The translations under genes and the position numbers were made by a program. The notes beneath the pieces were generated by a model. The model did not search any database, was not told the origin of the DNA, and worked only from the letters and a program-made list of their open reading frames with translations. From assembly GCA_030611885.1 (NCBI GenBank), contig JAUWOY010000011.1, forward strand, positions 1-64,000: 64,000 nt of DNA, given 5' to 3'. Positions 3,878 through 54,961 of this stretch are shown here, in pieces (the first letter of the stretch is position 1; each line of letters opens with the position of its first letter). Source of the DNA: Chloroflexota bacterium (GTDB taxonomy: Bacteria; Chloroflexota; Anaerolineae; VGOG01).

Positions 3878-5218
3878 TTGAGCCGCATCACCATTGATTA
3901 TTCCAAGGAAACACAATTCAGCGAGGCTTGGGTCGCTTTGGCGATCATGTTGACCCTCTTCGGCCTGGCCTTCCGCCAAAAGGGCCTGATGCTGGTGGCG
4001 GTGTTGCTGCTCACCATCGTGCCTATAGCCTGGCTGTGGAACAAGCTTGCCCTCCGTGGCCTGCACTACGAGCGACTCTTCAGCGAGCGGCGGGCCTTCC
4101 CAGACGAGACCCTGGAGCTCACTCTGCGCGTCTCCAATTGGAAGCTGTTGCCGGTGGGCTGGCTACAGATTGAAGATCAATTCCCGCTGGGTGTGCCGCT
4201 CCTGGATGAAGAGCTGCTTGCCTCGCAATCGTCGAACGTTGGCCACCTGGTCACCGCCTTTTCCCTGCGTTGGTACCAGCGAGTGTCCCGTCGCTACCGA
4301 TTGCATTGCCCTCGACGCGGCTATTACCGCTTTGGGCCGGCGCATCTAAAGTCGGGCGACCTGTTCGGTCTCTTCAGCCAGGAGGGGTGGCAGAAGAAGG
4401 ATGACTGGCTCATCGTCTATCCCAAGGTGCTGCCCATTGCCGAACTGGGGCTGTTGTCGAAAGAGCCCTTCGGCGAGACCAAAGCCAGGCAGCGGCTCTT
4501 CGCGGACCCGATGCGCACCATCGGGGTGCGCGATCACCGGCCTGAGGACAGCTTCAAGCACATCCACTGGAAGGCCACCGCTCGCCAGCAAAGGCTGCAA
4601 ACCAGGGTCTACGAGCCGACCACTTCCTTCAACCTGATCGTTTTTCTCAACGTGGCTACTTTCCCCAAGCATTGGCAGGGGAAAGACCCGGCCCTGTTGG
4701 AACGAGCCATAAGTGTAGCAGCCTCCATTGCCAATTACGGCGTGGAGCAGCGCTACATCGTGGGAGTCATTGCCAACGGCAGCGTGCCCCACTCGGATCA
4801 GTCCATCAAGGTGCTACCGAGCCGTGATCCCAGGCAACTGGCCCGCATCCTGGAAGCACTGGCTGCGGTGACTGGCTTCGCCACTTCTTCCATCGAAGCT
4901 CTGCTGATGGCGGAAAGCCCCAGGCTGCCCTGGGGGGCCACTCTGGTGGTGGTAACAGGGGTAGTCAGCGAAGAGCTCGTCACCACCTTGCTGCGGCTGC
5001 GGGACGTAGGTCGCCGCCTGGTGCTGATCTCTTTAGACCAGGAGCCGCCAGGCCGAGAACTGGAAGGCATTCTCTCCTATCATCTACCTGGCGTGGAGGT
5101 AGATTTTCGTCCTCCGTCGAGGAGGGGGGAAGTGCGGGGGGAGTTTGTGCAGGGAAGGCGGGCGGTGGAAACGTTCACCAGATTAGGAGGTCAAGAGCAA
5201 TGGGAATCCTCCATCTGA
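3878..5218 (+). CDS. DUF58 domain-containing protein
   Basis: TTG start; two N-terminal TM segments; RTIGVRDHRPEDSFKHIHWKATARQQRLQTRVYEPT is the DUF58 signature; follows MoxR. Confidence 0.9.
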   Translation: MSRITIDYSKETQFSEAWVALAIMLTLFGLAFRQKGLMLVAVLLLTIVPIAWLWNKLALRGLHYERLFSERRAFPDETLELTLRVSNWKLLPVGWLQIEDQFPLGVPLLDEELLASQSSNVGHLVTAFSLRWYQRVSRRYRLHCPRRGYYRFGPAHLKSGDLFGLFSQEGWQKKDDWLIVYPKVLPIAELGLLSKEPFGETKARQRLFADPMRTIGVRDHRPEDSFKHIHWKATARQQRLQTRVYEPTTSFNLIVFLNVATFPKHWQGKDPALLERAISVAASIANYGVEQRYIVGVIANGSVPHSDQSIKVLPSRDPRQLARILEALAAVTGFATSSIEALLMAESPRLPWGATLVVVTGVVSEELVTTLLRLRDVGRRLVLISLDQEPPGRELEGILSYHLPGVEVDFRPPSRRGEVRGEFVQGRRAVETFTRLGGQEQWESSI

Positions 5219-6639
5219 ACTGGCGCAAGGAAGCGCTGTATGTGACCCTCGTCGGTGCTGAAATGTGTTGGTTCACCCCCTGGTCCTTGGTGATCACCCG
5301 TCAAGCAGCGGGCCTCACACCGTATTCCACAGCGCTAACGCTGGGCGTCCTCGTTTTGGCCGTGATTTATTTCAGCCGTATCATGGATCGCTTGCAGTTC
5401 GATCTCCTGTACCAGCGAGTGATCCTGATCATCGCGGTGGTGATCACTACCGCCTTGATCATGCACTTTCTCCTTTACCCAGGTTACAGCTTGTTCGACC
5501 TTGGCTGGTTGGGAAAAGCAGGAGGGTCTCTTTTGTATTTCTACTCGCTGCCGCCGGAAGCCGGTGTCGCTGCCATTGTCCTCTTCTTGTGGTGGCGAGG
5601 GATCAGCATCGGCCAACGCCATTTGACTTTCCAGGGGGTGGCCTTCTCCTTCCGCCTGGGCGTCCTGCTGCTCGTTTTCTCCACGCCGCTACTTTTCATC
5701 CTCAACTATGATTCTACAGTATTGACCTTACCTTTCTTCTTCTTCAGCCTGATGGCCGTCGCTCTGGCCCGCGTGGAAGAGGTCAATCGGGCCAAAGGAG
5801 GCGTGGGGGCGCCCTTCAACTTCACCTGGTTAGCCATATTGCTCGGCTCCATTATTGTCGTCTTGGCTACGGCGTGGCTCGTCTCGCGGGTTTACTCTGT
5901 TGAAGGCTTCTCCCAGGCCTTGCGCTGGTTTCAGCCAGTCCTTAACCCGCTGCTGAAGGTGGTGGAGTACGTTCTTTTCTTGTTGATCAGGCTTCTGAGC
6001 CCTCTCTTGCGGTGGTTCTTCAGGATGTTCCAGGAAATCTTTGAGAGCCTTGCCCAGAATATTGAGGGCCTTGAGAGCTTTAAGCCGCTGTCTCCCCCGG
6101 ACATTCCAAGCGCCGAGCCGACCCAACCGCCGCGTTTGCTGATGGACATCTCCCGTTACGTTTGTCTGAGTCTCCTGGGGGTAGGTGTCTTGATGGCATT
6201 GGCTCTCACCCTGCGGCGGCGACTAGACAGGCGGCGAAGGGGCGATGAGATCCGCGAATCTCTTTGGTCGTCGGCGGATTTTGCTGATGGGATGCTGAAC
6301 TCCCTGCGCGACGGATGGGATCGTTTCAAGGGCCTGGCTGGACTGGTGGGACGGTTTGGCCCTGGTATGCGGCTCTATGCTGCGGTGTCTATTCGCAAGA
6401 TCTACGCTAACATGGCCCGCTTGGCGGAGAGGCAGGGCTTTCCCCGTCAGCCCGCCCAGACACCCTACGAATACCTGCCAGCTTTGGGTCTGGCTTTTCC
6501 TGATTGCCAGGCCGAGGCCACGGCCATAACAGAAGCCTACGTGAAAGTGCACTACGGCGAGGTGCCTGAGAGCCTCAGAGAATTGCAACGTATTCGAGAA
6601 TGTTGGCAGCATATCCAAGAACGTGAACGTGATGCGTGA
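5200..6639 (+). CDS. Membrane protein with C-terminal DUF4129
   Basis: Multiple TM helices; C-terminus IRKIYANMARLAERQGFPRQPAQTPYEYLPAL is DUF4129-like; third gene of a MoxR/DUF58 operon. Confidence 0.85.
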   Translation: MGILHLNWRKEALYVTLVGAEMCWFTPWSLVITRQAAGLTPYSTALTLGVLVLAVIYFSRIMDRLQFDLLYQRVILIIAVVITTALIMHFLLYPGYSLFDLGWLGKAGGSLLYFYSLPPEAGVAAIVLFLWWRGISIGQRHLTFQGVAFSFRLGVLLLVFSTPLLFILNYDSTVLTLPFFFFSLMAVALARVEEVNRAKGGVGAPFNFTWLAILLGSIIVVLATAWLVSRVYSVEGFSQALRWFQPVLNPLLKVVEYVLFLLIRLLSPLLRWFFRMFQEIFESLAQNIEGLESFKPLSPPDIPSAEPTQPPRLLMDISRYVCLSLLGVGVLMALALTLRRRLDRRRRGDEIRESLWSSADFADGMLNSLRDGWDRFKGLAGLVGRFGPGMRLYAAVSIRKIYANMARLAERQGFPRQPAQTPYEYLPALGLAFPDCQAEATAITEAYVKVHYGEVPESLRELQRIRECWQHIQERERDA

Positions 6640-6672
6640 GAAATAACTCGCGTTTGTAAGCGCTCAGCCCCA

Positions 6673-6780
6673 GTGCGATCACGCCGGTTGAGTAGGCCGC
6701 AGGTCGTATCGAAACCAAGTGATCGCACGAGGAGGCGGCCAAACGAGGTTTCGATACGCCCCTTTCGGGGCTACTCAACC
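6673..6780. repeat. Composite nested inverted repeat (GGTTGAGTAG...GTATCGAAACC / GGTTTCGATAC...CTACTCAACC)
   Basis: GGTTGAGTAG 6686-6695 pairs with CTACTCAACC 6771-6780; GTATCGAAACC 6706-6716 with GGTTTCGATAC 6747-6757; GTGCGATCAC 6673-6682 with GTGATCGCAC 6719-6728. Related motif at about 31798. Confidence 0.8.
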
Positions 6781-6801
6781 GACATTTGGCCTATCCCCTA
6801 A

Positions 6802-8451
<1,650 letters not shown>

Positions 8452-8493
8452 ATTTGTGCTTTCGATTACTTTGGAGTATAATCATGGTTGTTA

Positions 8494-8566
8494 GCCACCC
8501 TAGCTCAAGCGGCAGAGCAAGCGCTTCGTAAGCGCTAGGTTATCGGTTCAAGTCCGATGGGTGGCT
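8494..8566 (+). tRNA. tRNA-Thr (anticodon CGT)
   Basis: Full cloverleaf by eye: acceptor GCCACCC/GGGTGGC, D-arm GCTC/GAGC, anticodon stem AGCGC/GCGCT with loop TTCGTAA, T-arm ATCGG/CCGAT, discriminator T; CCA not encoded. Confidence 0.95.
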
Positions 8567-8573
8567 CTGCCCA

Positions 8574-8599
8574 AGCCCCATGAACTGGGGCTTTTTTTC
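8574..8599 (+). terminator. Rho-independent terminator after tRNA-Thr
   Basis: AGCCCCA-TGAAC-TGGGGCT followed by a T run. Confidence 0.85.
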
Positions 8600-8676
8600 T
8601 AAACATGGATAATGGTGTATAATATGGTCAGCGAGCAAAGACCACTGTCGAGGCAGGGGGAAAGAAGCGAGGGGAC

Positions 8677-9168
8677 ATGAGCGTGAGGCGTGGAAATCCA
8701 TCGGAATTTGATGACGAGGCATTGGGTGCCGCATTGCGCGACTACTTTTCCAGCCAACAGGATGTGATCGCGGCCTATCTGTTCGGCTCACGAGTTACGG
8801 GTAAGGCGCGGCCTGACAGCGACGTGGATACGGCAGTATTGCTCTCCGAGGAGGACGGCGTGGTCCGCTTCGAGCGGCGATTGCGTCTGATGAGTGAGGT
8901 GAGCGACGTCTGCGGTCGGGAGGCCGACGTGGTAGTGTTAAACGATGCTCCGCCGCTGCTGCAGCACCAGATTCTGCGCCACGGGCGGCTGATCTTCGAG
9001 CGAGACCGGCGGGCGCGGGTCGAGTTTGAGGTGCGGGCTGGGAAGATCTATGCCGACCTGAAGCCAATGTATGATTTCCATACCCGCGATTTGTTGCAGA
9101 AGATCAAGGAGGTGGGCCTTGGGGGACGTAGACGACATCATCGCCAGCCGGCTGAAATTGCTCGCTGA
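8677..9168 (+). CDS. MNT-type nucleotidyltransferase (antitoxin-like)
   Basis: AYLFGSRVTGKARPDSDVDTAVLL (GS-x-DxD) with READVVVLNDAPPLLQHQILRHGRLIFERD; followed by a HepT-like ORF. Confidence 0.88.
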   Translation: MSVRRGNPSEFDDEALGAALRDYFSSQQDVIAAYLFGSRVTGKARPDSDVDTAVLLSEEDGVVRFERRLRLMSEVSDVCGREADVVVLNDAPPLLQHQILRHGRLIFERDRRARVEFEVRAGKIYADLKPMYDFHTRDLLQKIKEVGLGGRRRHHRQPAEIAR

Positions 9169-21668: not shown

Positions 21669-22679
21669 ATGACCGTCGGCGTGAAGGAATTCAAGAGATG
21701 TCTGGTGACAGGCGGTGCCGGTTTTATCGGCAGTCATCTGGTAGATCGGTTGCTCAGCGACGGTCACGCGGTGATTGTCCTCGACAACTTTTCCACCGGC
21801 CGGCTGCAAAACCTGGCCCGCCAACAAGAGGTGGCCCAATTGCAGATTGTGCAGGTGGACGTGGCTGACCATGCGGCCATTCCCTCGTACTTTGAAGATG
21901 TGGACTGGGTCTTTCATCTGGCAGCCCTGGCAGACATTGTGCCCTCCATCCAACGCCCGTTGAACTATCACCACGCCAACGTGGACGGCACGGTCAGCGT
22001 GTTGGAAGCAGCCCGGCAGGCCGGCGTCAAGCGCTTCGTCTATGTGGCCTCCTCCTCCTATTATGGCATTCCAGACGTCTATCCCACGCCCGAAACAGCG
22101 CCGATTCGCCCCCAATATCCCTACGCCTTGACCAAGTACCTGGGCGAACTGGCGACGTTACACTGGGGCCAGGTTTATGGATTGCCGGTGGTTTCCTTGC
22201 GCCTCTTTAATGTCTATGGCCCCCGTTCCCGCACCTCCGGCGCCTACGGCGCAGTTTTCGGGGTCTTTTTGGCGCAGAAACTGGCCGGGCAACCCTTTAC
22301 CGTGGTCGGAGACGGCACCCAAACCCGTGACTTTACTTTTGTCACCGACGTGGTGAATGCCTGTGTGATGGCAGCCGAATCGGACCTGGTGGGCGAGGTG
22401 ATGAACGTGGGCAGTGGCAACACATATAGTGTGAATCGCCTGGTCGAACTATTGGGCGGCGATGTCACCTACATTCCCAAGCGGCCTGGCGAACCCGATT
22501 GCACCTTTGCCGACACCACCAGGATCAAACGCTTGTTGGGTTGGGAGCCTCAGGTGTCGTTCGAAGAGGGCGTGCAGATCATGTTAGACAACATTGACTA
22601 CTGGCGCGAAGCGCCGGTGTGGACGCCGGACACAATCGCCGAGGCGACCCAAGACTGGTTTGCGTATTTAGGGCAGTGA
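21669..22679 (+). CDS. NAD-dependent epimerase (UDP-sugar 4-epimerase-like SDR)
   Basis: CLVTGGAGFIGSHLVDRLLSDGHAVIVLDNFSTG; YALTKYLGE. Confidence 0.93.
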   Translation: MTVGVKEFKRCLVTGGAGFIGSHLVDRLLSDGHAVIVLDNFSTGRLQNLARQQEVAQLQIVQVDVADHAAIPSYFEDVDWVFHLAALADIVPSIQRPLNYHHANVDGTVSVLEAARQAGVKRFVYVASSSYYGIPDVYPTPETAPIRPQYPYALTKYLGELATLHWGQVYGLPVVSLRLFNVYGPRSRTSGAYGAVFGVFLAQKLAGQPFTVVGDGTQTRDFTFVTDVVNACVMAAESDLVGEVMNVGSGNTYSVNRLVELLGGDVTYIPKRPGEPDCTFADTTRIKRLLGWEPQVSFEEGVQIMLDNIDYWREAPVWTPDTIAEATQDWFAYLGQ

Positions 22680-22711
22680 ATGTCTGAGCCCGACCAAGAG
22701 ATTACGAGAAA

Positions 22712-24223
22712 ATGACCAACAGTAACACCAAGATCAAAACCATCGAAGAGCTGGCCGGCATTGTGGCCCGGTTGAAGCGAGATGGCAAAACAGTGGTACA
22801 TAGCCACGGGGACTTTGACCTGTTGCATCCGGGGCATATCCGGCACTTTCAGGCTGCGCGCGCCCTGGGAGATGTACTGATCGTCACCCTGACGCAGGAC
22901 CAGGATATCCACAGAGGCCCCGATCGGCCAGTTTTTGGGCAGCAACTACGCGCCGAATCGCTTGCCGCTTTGGCCTCCGTGGACTATGTGGCGATCAATC
23001 CCTGGCCAACCGCTGCCCAGGCCATTCGCAGGCTAAAGCCCCATATCTATGTCAATGGAGCAGAGTCAGCAGACGAGTTGACAGGAGAGGAAAGGGAAGC
23101 CGTTGAAGCGGTGGGGGGACGCATTGAGTTCACCCACGACGTCACCTTTAGTTCAACGCACTTGATCAACCAGTATCTGGACGTCTTTCCCGAGCAGACA
23201 CGTTCTTTCTTGGAAGCATTTCGCGCCCGTCACTCGGCTGACGAACTCACCGCGCGCCTGCAAAGTCTAGCCAATCTGCGGGTGCTGGTCATTGGTGACG
23301 CGATCATTGATGAGTATCACTACGCTCACGCAATGGGCAAGTCGTCCAAGTCGGCTACAATCGTGGCACGCTTTTTGGGAGGAGAGACTTATGCTGGGGG
23401 TGCGCTGGCGGTCTGTAACCACGTAGCGGGTTTTTGCCAGGAGGTTGACCTGGTCACCTGCCTGGGCACGGAAGGTTCGTATGAAGACTTTATCCGTAGC
23501 GCGCTGAAACCGAACGTCAGCCCCTGCTTCTTTCTCTGGCCCGGTGCGCCGACGGTGGTAAAGCGTCGCTTTGTTGATCCGTTTATGCTAAACAAGATGT
23601 TTGAAATCTGTTTCCTCAGTGACCAGGAATTGCCCGGCGAGGTGCGTCAGGAGGTCGCTGACTATCTGGAGCAAACTCTGGATGCCTACGACCTGGTGAT
23701 TGTGGCGGACTTTGGACATGGCTTGTTGGGTGTGGACCTGGCGCGGTTCATTAGTGAACACGCCCCCTTCCTGGCGCTGAGCGTCCAGGCTAACAGCGCC
23801 AATCTGGGCTTTAACGTGGTCACCAAGTTCCCGCACGCCGATTATATATGCATTGACGAGCAAGAAGTGCGCCTGGCGTTGCACGATCGCATTACGCCGG
23901 TGGAGGGGTTGTTGCACACCGTGGCCGGGCAGATGCAATGCCGGTTGGTCGCTGTGACATTGGGTTCACGCGGATCATTGACGTATTCCTCGAACGCTGA
24001 TACAGTCTCTATTCCAGCATTGTCGCGAAAAGTAGTGGATACGGTCGGCGCAGGTGATGCATACATGGCGGTTTCGTCGCTGTGTGCAGTTGCGGACGCA
24101 CCAGCGGAAATAGTTGGGTTTGTCGGGAATGTGGCTGGCGCTCTGGCGGCCTGTATCGTTGGGAATAAGGAATCTATTGATTTGGAATCGGTGCGTGATT
24201 TCATAGTAACTTTGCTGAAATAG
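22712..24223 (+). CDS. Bifunctional cytidylyltransferase-fold/PfkB kinase protein (HldE-like, reversed domain order)
   Basis: N-terminal HSHGDFDLLHPGHIRHFQAARALGD nucleotidyltransferase domain; C-terminal DTVGAGDAYMA PfkB kinase motif. Confidence 0.85.
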   Translation: MTNSNTKIKTIEELAGIVARLKRDGKTVVHSHGDFDLLHPGHIRHFQAARALGDVLIVTLTQDQDIHRGPDRPVFGQQLRAESLAALASVDYVAINPWPTAAQAIRRLKPHIYVNGAESADELTGEEREAVEAVGGRIEFTHDVTFSSTHLINQYLDVFPEQTRSFLEAFRARHSADELTARLQSLANLRVLVIGDAIIDEYHYAHAMGKSSKSATIVARFLGGETYAGGALAVCNHVAGFCQEVDLVTCLGTEGSYEDFIRSALKPNVSPCFFLWPGAPTVVKRRFVDPFMLNKMFEICFLSDQELPGEVRQEVADYLEQTLDAYDLVIVADFGHGLLGVDLARFISEHAPFLALSVQANSANLGFNVVTKFPHADYICIDEQEVRLALHDRITPVEGLLHTVAGQMQCRLVAVTLGSRGSLTYSSNADTVSIPALSRKVVDTVGAGDAYMAVSSLCAVADAPAEIVGFVGNVAGALAACIVGNKESIDLESVRDFIVTLLK

Positions 24224-50828: not shown

Positions 50829-50884
50829 AGAGCTGTTTCAGCCAGGGCGGGGCCGCTAGCCGAAAATCTGATAAGCAAAAGATG

Positions 50885-51150
50885 ATGATCAGGAGGAGTA
50901 GGCGGGTCGGACATGGTAGAGAAGAGGGGTCGTGGGCTGAAAGCTCCTCGCAGGGAGATCCGCCGAAGGTCGCCTGGGAGTCTGCTGGCTGATGGCAGAT
51001 GGCTCGCAGCTTCTGCAGCAGGTCAGTACGGGTAAGCCCGTTACAGCAGAATGAGAGAACAGCGGATCTGCCTGGCAATCTGCTGTTAAGCAAGGTGGTA
51101 CCACGGGAGGTGAGCCTCTCTCGTCCTTGACGGGAGGGGTTCTTTTGTTT
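50885..51150 (+). promoter_or_regulatory. T-box riboswitch leader (probable valine specifier GTC)
   Basis: AAGGTGGTACCACG T-box motif at 51092-51105; AGTA (50897-50900) and GAAG (50965-50968) resemble specifier-loop S-turn strands, followed by GTC at 50969-50971. Start boundary approximate. Confidence 0.88.
51112..51150 (+). terminator. T-box intrinsic terminator
   Basis: GAGCCTCTCTCGTC / GACGGGAGGGGTTC 14-bp stem (with G-T pairs), 3-nt loop, then TTTTGTTT. Confidence 0.88.
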
Positions 51151-51167
51151 ACCATGGGGACGGCCAA

Positions 51168-51196
51168 TTGACAAATCAGGCGACTTCCCCTATACT
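51168..51196 (+). promoter_or_regulatory. Sigma-70-type promoter (TTGACA - 17 bp - TATACT)
   Basis: -35 TTGACA at 51168-51173 and -10 TATACT at 51191-51196, spacing exactly 17, between the T-box terminator and the RHH gene. Confidence 0.82.
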
Positions 51197-51201
51197 TCAT
51201 G

Positions 51202-51217
51202 TGCCACTATGGTGGCA
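51202..51217. promoter_or_regulatory. Palindromic operator candidate TGCCAC-TATG-GTGGCA
   Basis: Perfect 6-bp arms right after the -10 box of the toxin-antitoxin promoter. Confidence 0.6.
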
Positions 51218-51240
51218 ATCTTTGGACGGAGGTGATCAAA

Positions 51241-51567
51241 ATGGAGACGGCTAAACTAACGGTGCGTTTGCCCAGGCAGCTTCACCAGACCCTGCGGGAA
51301 CGGGCAACGCGATCGGCGCAGTCGCTGAACAAGGTCATCGTTAACACCCTTTGGCGAGGATTGGAGCGCAAGGAGATCACTCCCCCCTCAGAATATGAGC
51401 GCACGATGGCCGCTATTCGCAAGACGGGATTGGTGACGACCCTGGGACCAGAGTGGGACAAGTATATCGAAGATGCTCCGGATATGACCGCTGAAGAGCT
51501 TCGTGAGGCGCTGAGAGGAATATCCCCTCTGTCTGAAGATATCATCGCGGATCGGGGCGAGCGCTGA
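51241..51567 (+). CDS. Ribbon-helix-helix antitoxin-like protein
   Basis: METAKLTVRLPRQLHQTLRERATRSAQSLNKVIVNTLWRGLER (RHH, Arc/CopG-like); start after RBS GGAGGTGATC. Confidence 0.85.
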   Translation: METAKLTVRLPRQLHQTLRERATRSAQSLNKVIVNTLWRGLERKEITPPSEYERTMAAIRKTGLVTTLGPEWDKYIEDAPDMTAEELREALRGISPLSEDIIADRGER

Positions 51568-52043
51568 TGGCTTCTTTCTACTTTGACAGCAGCGCATTGG
51601 TCAAATATTACATCGCTGAGATCGGCACCCACTGGGTGAAGATCTTGGTTGATGATCGAGTCGGTGATGAATGGCGCAACGCCGTCGCCACTTCATCTCT
51701 CAGCGTTGCGGAAGTGGTGGCTGCTTTTACTAAGCGGCATCTGATGCGCGAGATTTCCACGGGGCTGAAAGCGGCCCTTATTTCTCGCTTTCTGAGGGAT
51801 GGGCGCCAACGGTGTACATTGCTTGAAGCGGATAGCACGGTCATTGATACCGCCGTACAACTCATCCAACGCCATCCCCTGCGCGCCTATGATGCTGTGC
51901 AGTTAGCCACCGCTCTGATCTTGAATAATGCCTTGATCGCCGATCAGCTACCCCCCCTAACATTCGTCTCCGCTGACAACGTTCTCTGCAGAGCGGCGCG
52001 GGCGGAGGGGCTGCCAGCCGAAAATCCCAACGAGTATCAGTAG
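51567..52043 (+). CDS. PIN-domain toxin (VapC-like)
   Basis: MASFYFDSSALVKYYIAEIGTHWVKILVDD; VAEVVAAFTKR; LRAYDAVQLATAL; FVSADNVLCRAARAEGL. Confidence 0.92.
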   Translation: MASFYFDSSALVKYYIAEIGTHWVKILVDDRVGDEWRNAVATSSLSVAEVVAAFTKRHLMREISTGLKAALISRFLRDGRQRCTLLEADSTVIDTAVQLIQRHPLRAYDAVQLATALILNNALIADQLPPLTFVSADNVLCRAARAEGLPAENPNEYQ

Positions 52044-52127
52044 ATCCAAGATTTCCAGCAGAGGCGGCTCCCATGCCGCCGGTTCGCGGGCGTGGGAGCC
52101 CGCTCTGCTCAGAATTTGGATCTACTG
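52038..52127. repeat. Long inverted repeat between PIN gene and valS (CAGTAGATCCAA...TTGGATCTACTG)
   Basis: 12-bp perfect outer arms 52038-52049 / 52116-52127; inner arms 52057-52073 / 52093-52109 with few mismatches. Confidence 0.85.
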
Positions 52128-52168
52128 AGCATGAATAACCGAGTAATTTTCTAAGGAGGTATCTATCT

Positions 52169-54961
<2,793 letters not shown>

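Follow-up and report, generated by a model that had tools for sequence, protein, structure and literature searches.

T-box leaders of branched-chain aminoacyl-tRNA synthetase genes have been discussed previously (PMC2494555), and toxins of the VapC family have been reported to cut tRNA (PMC6265470, PMC10945364). A leader of the first kind and a candidate toxin of the second lie side by side in the window, the whole 64,000-nucleotide stretch of DNA that we analysed, where a toxin-antitoxin (TA) pair precedes valS, the gene for valyl-tRNA synthetase. All elements are in forward orientation, in the order T-box, terminator, promoter, palindrome, antitoxin, toxin, repeat and valS, which confirms the claim of a preliminary description that a ribbon-helix-helix (RHH) antitoxin gene and a PIN toxin gene stand between the T-box and valS. 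That description had overlooked the near-consensus promoter and the palindrome in the gap between terminator and antitoxin, as well as a genome-wide repeat in the gap between toxin and valS.

The leader (positions 50876-51131, + strand) matches the Rfam T-box model RF00230 over its full length (model positions 1-219) with 98.6 bits (E = 1.7e-20), the gathering score being 93. Its landmarks are an AGUA at 50897-50900, a GAA at 50965-50967, the GUC specifier at 50969-50971 and the T-box core GGTGGTACCACG at 51094-51105. The specifier, a valine codon placed opposite the AGUA and after the GAA, is cognate to valS, the synthetase of the same unit, and GUC right behind GAA is also found in the T-boxes of the linked loci in relatives. 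An intrinsic terminator (51112-51149, +), found by the terminator scan and coinciding with the terminator end of the RF00230 match, consists of a 14-bp stem (51112-51142) followed by the T-run TTTTGTTT. The complete valine T-box with a GTC specifier proposed earlier is borne out in both its boundaries and its specifier. From the T-box terminator to valS, the terminator scan found nothing except a single weak site, at chance level, within the toxin gene. Seven other T-box matches exist in this genome, and the genes behind them were read by eye as serS, proS, ileS, thrS, leuS, a trpB-like gene and one unassigned ORF; this TA module was found at none of these seven T-boxes, and the TA as a general companion of T-boxes is ruled out within this genome and within the 80 toxin loci of the genome scan described below.

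The antitoxin gene (51241-51567, +) encodes 108 amino acids with an RHH-type N-terminus (KLTVRLP...SLN), in which KLT, R, P and SLN are invariant across the aligned antitoxins of the linked loci. Its sole Pfam match, PF05534, is weak (21.9 bits, the cut-off being 21). The toxin gene (51567-52043, +) overlaps it by 1 nt (TGATG at 51565-51569) and encodes a predicted PIN-domain ribonuclease of VapC type with 158 amino acids (PF01850, E = 9.8e-9), in which all four catalytic acids (D7, E49, D109 and D137) are present and invariant in an alignment of 42 sequences. The AlphaFold model of the toxin is a confident PIN fold (pLDDT 97.1), and Foldseek matched it to archaeal PIN proteins and to VapC structures from Mycobacterium, Shigella and Rickettsia, the PDB fold matches being remote (11-20% identity); a PDB sequence search with the toxin returned 2fe1 only, weakly. 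The NCBIfam and PADLOC models gave no match to either protein. An anti-phage family was considered and set aside for want of any PADLOC match, as was a mobile or plasmid cassette, for which a single plasmid match (Calothrix, 35% identity) was obtained. In pairs with unsaturated dS, dN is well below dS for both toxin and antitoxin, with a toxin dN/dS of about 0.17 for L136-L138, while in several other pairs dS is saturated and little can be learned from it; the TA genes thus appear to be under purifying selection. The toxin is probably an RNA-cutting enzyme, with tRNA as its likeliest substrate.

Between the T-box terminator and the antitoxin lies a predicted promoter, TTGACA-17-TATACT (51168-51196, +), which agrees with the sigma-70 consensus at 11 of 12 positions. 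It is followed by the palindrome TGCCAC-TATG-GTGGCA (51202-51217, +), the sole perfect site of the form TGCCAC-N4-GTGGCA in the genome and the presumed antitoxin binding site. Other linked loci carry promoter-like hexamers in the same region at similar spacing, as read by eye, with a weak -35 element in G130 and G091. In the GTDB scan, 9 of the 11 valS-linked loci have a perfect palindrome; that of L140 deviates at one position, that of L135 (genome G020) is degenerate, and no perfect copy was found at the unlinked toxin loci of that scan. A decayed TA copy (L055, 1749-2013), with an antitoxin that lacks the RHH start and a toxin stub, was observed in G020 ahead of the intact pair. Class-wide, the YRTR form of the palindrome occurs in 18 of 396 genomes, with one site in each: 13 at the T-box/valS locus, one (G069) before a TA pair with no T-box in the stretch read, and four without a toxin nearby. 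The reversed pattern, used as a control, matched about a dozen genomes, so the sites away from valS are at chance level.

The sister genus G002, of the same family, provides a second view of this control region. Its valS matches the window at 88-90% identity in the stretches aligned and starts 162 nt past the T-box core, with the TA genes absent between, and the promoter and palindrome are still present before valS (CCAATTGACAAGCCAGGCGATTTCCCCTATACTTTGTGTGCCACCGTGGTGGCAATC). The simplest reading is that the TA genes were deleted in G002 and their control region was kept before valS, which looks like a TA module bequeathing its control region to an essential gene. Neither promoter nor palindrome was seen in G001.

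The toxin was searched in 396 genomes of the class, and the flanks of the best loci were inspected. A T-box core was found upstream of the six toxins closest to that of the window and of one further down the list, these seven being in G020 (f19), G120, G266, G369, G394 (f10), G064 and G130 (f31). A separate GTDB genome scan, which covered largely the same genomes again, yielded 80 toxin loci, and the order T-box, TA, valS recurs in ten of them (L135-L140, L143, L146, L147 and L178), the count including L136 and L147, whose contigs end before valS. One further locus, L160, has the order TA, T-box, valS, and L141 was left out of the linked set as its valS lies about 2 kb away on the opposite strand. 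In the remaining loci of the 80 no T-box core was found, and apart from L141 there was no counted valS match. The search for the operator palindrome brought further linked loci in G111, G148, G192 and G091 (f31). By the organism names in their titles, the linked loci come from Anaerolineae or other Chloroflexi. Because the gene order recurs across loci, a single chance insertion is ruled out.

In most linked loci the TA pair stands immediately before valS, even where further genes stand between it and the T-box, namely a methyltransferase-like gene in f10 and two genes in L146. The junction with valS can be very tight, with toxin and valS frames overlapping by 4 nt in G266 and about 16 nt between the toxin stop and the valS start in L146. 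In L140 a tandem of two valS genes (4234-9164) follows T-box and TA, first a second valS of the PRK13208 type and then the usual one. Judged by gene order, the linkage is to valS rather than to the T-box, because the TA adjoins valS despite such intervening genes and also in L160; since the TA of L160 is upstream of the T-box and still beside valS, proximity to valS is the constant feature. This linkage is dispensable, as in most relatives valS follows the T-box directly and there is no TA. In several families, relatives carry a methyltransferase-like gene behind the valine T-box and ahead of valS or of the TA (L057, L062, L072, L086, L088 and L089, and also L107-L110). Between T-box and valS, such an ORF occurs in six relatives and a different ORF in one; four of the six were tested with Pfam and match methyltransferase domains.

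In the toxin tree, a single supported group of 28 rows contains all twelve linked toxins, L160 included, and the labels linked and unlinked change at least three times. A single clade of linked toxins is not rejected by an AU test (p = 0.33 when L160 is included, 0.19 when it is left out), a result that does not prove that they form one. On the valS tree, TA presence must have changed about six times, which implies that losses, transfers or both occurred. Toxin distances correlate with valS distances (permutation p = 0.0024 with nine taxa; p = 0.048 with six, one per lineage), and the correlation is consistent with largely shared descent of toxin and valS. The toxin divergence between the window and G020 is low relative to that of valS (ratio 1.02, the lowest of 36 pairs), and a transfer of the TA between the two lineages is possible. 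Transfer of the whole locus from G020 is unsupported, the T-box of the window being 84% identical to that of G002 and 65% to that of G020. On this comparative evidence, the TA at valS is an old, recurring arrangement in several Anaerolineae families.

The toxin family also has other neighbours. We observed a second RHH-PIN module in this genome, directly upstream of gatB on contig C16 (L234, G000:C16:20000-25000; toxin at 22427-22882). It belongs to a second branch of the TA family, found upstream of gatB in five genomes (this one, G002, G183, G115 and G013), with gatB directly behind the module in G002, G183 and G115 and about 550 nt downstream in G013; this pattern was noticed only after looking at the neighbours. 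Other toxin relatives precede unrelated genes, such as gyrA (L155), ETF and histidine kinase genes, so aminoacylation genes are not the only neighbours of the RHH-PIN family.

We propose, with a probability of roughly 0.68, that the valS transcription unit of Anaerolineae has taken in a VapBC-like module and that valS is expressed there as a two-input operon. The first input would be an upstream promoter whose transcript passes the T-box for tRNA-Val and is raised when tRNA-Val is uncharged. The second would be the sigma-70 promoter of the TA, on which the antitoxin, or its complex with the toxin, would probably act as a repressor at TGCCAC-N4-GTGGCA. Transcripts started at either one could run through antitoxin and toxin into valS (52169-54961, +; 930 amino acids; NCBIfam TIGR00422 and NF004349), and the supply of valyl-tRNA synthetase and the state of the TA would thereby be coupled. 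The gap before valS is occupied by an interspersed palindromic repeat of REP/MITE-like type (52040-52130, no strand assigned), which starts at the toxin stop codon and is present in dozens of copies in the genome (65 matches listed, with some copies counted on both strands); read-through could be weaker, or the RNA processed, at this repeat. The earlier suggestion of a TA cassette inserted into a T-box-valS unit holds insofar as the cassette lies inside the unit, and fails as a single insertion, since the arrangement is old and recurring.

A serious rival, to which we give somewhat less than an even chance, is that the module is selfishly entrenched before essential genes: a TA with its own promoter would become fixed there because deletion costs both the antitoxin and a promoter of the downstream gene, and neither valine nor the T-box would be tied to it by regulation. 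This explanation shares the two-promoter anatomy of the two-input operon and differs from it by denying a regulatory role. It is favoured by the predicted promoter of the TA itself, by G002, which retains that promoter before valS without the TA genes, and by the toxin relatives that precede other housekeeping genes, gatB and gyrA (L155). However, the operator-bearing branch is found almost entirely at valS, in several families, and gatB, the second recurrent neighbour, is likewise an aminoacylation gene.

We regard as unlikely a circuit that leads from starvation to the toxin, in which uncharged tRNA-Val antiterminates the T-box, transcription of TA and valS rises together, and the toxin cuts tRNA (perhaps tRNA-Val), slows translation and so turns the T-box off again. 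The complete valine T-box with its terminator, the GUC kept behind GAA at the linked loci and the reports of VapC toxins as tRNA cutters (PMC6265470, PMC10945364) agree with such a circuit, and, because there is no other clear terminator before valS, additional TA transcript through antitermination, and with it the effect of starvation on TA dosage that the preliminary description had envisaged, is possible. Against the circuit, the TA has its own predicted promoter, so that it does not depend on the T-box, and in L160 the T-box lies downstream of the TA; the methyltransferase gene (f10) or the two genes (L146) that part T-box from TA also speak against the circuit. Repeated chance insertion, in which a tolerant gap between T-box and valS receives TA, methyltransferase and other genes, would account for the seven relatives with other ORFs in that gap, but we consider it very unlikely, as it is already weakened by the linked toxins, which are no random draw but group together in one supported region of the toxin tree, by the operator that the linked loci share, by the position of the TA beside valS also where it is parted from the T-box by further genes, and by toxin distances that partly track valS distances.

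The TA at valS may tie a probable RNA-cutting toxin to the charging of valine tRNA. A further step, which we put forward as a rather improbable conjecture, is that valS-linked PIN toxins cleave tRNA-Val and gatB-linked ones tRNA-Gln or tRNA-Asn; the modules would then be built-in, tRNA-specific brakes, in which the neighbouring gene makes the matching charged tRNA and the T-box senses the pool that the toxin depletes. The neighbouring gene may thus name the tRNA, which offers a hypothesis for how such toxins choose their targets.

In a search limited to an open-access library, no title or abstract described a TA module kept inside a T-box synthetase unit in several families of bacteria, and the main text of PMC2494555 makes no mention of the word toxin. 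The locus resembles the known T-box synthetase operons (RF00230) in its complete valine-type T-box with a terminator upstream of valS, and differs from them in that a TA with its own predicted promoter and operator lies between the leader and the synthetase. It is similar to type II TA systems of the VapBC kind in the small antitoxin gene overlapping a PIN toxin gene, the four acidic residues, the PIN fold that matches VapC structures in the predicted model and the palindrome at the promoter. Unlike in those systems, the RHH-like antitoxin has only a weak Pfam match, neither protein is matched by NCBIfam or PADLOC, the PDB fold matches are remote, and the module is stably linked to valS. Each component on its own is already known.
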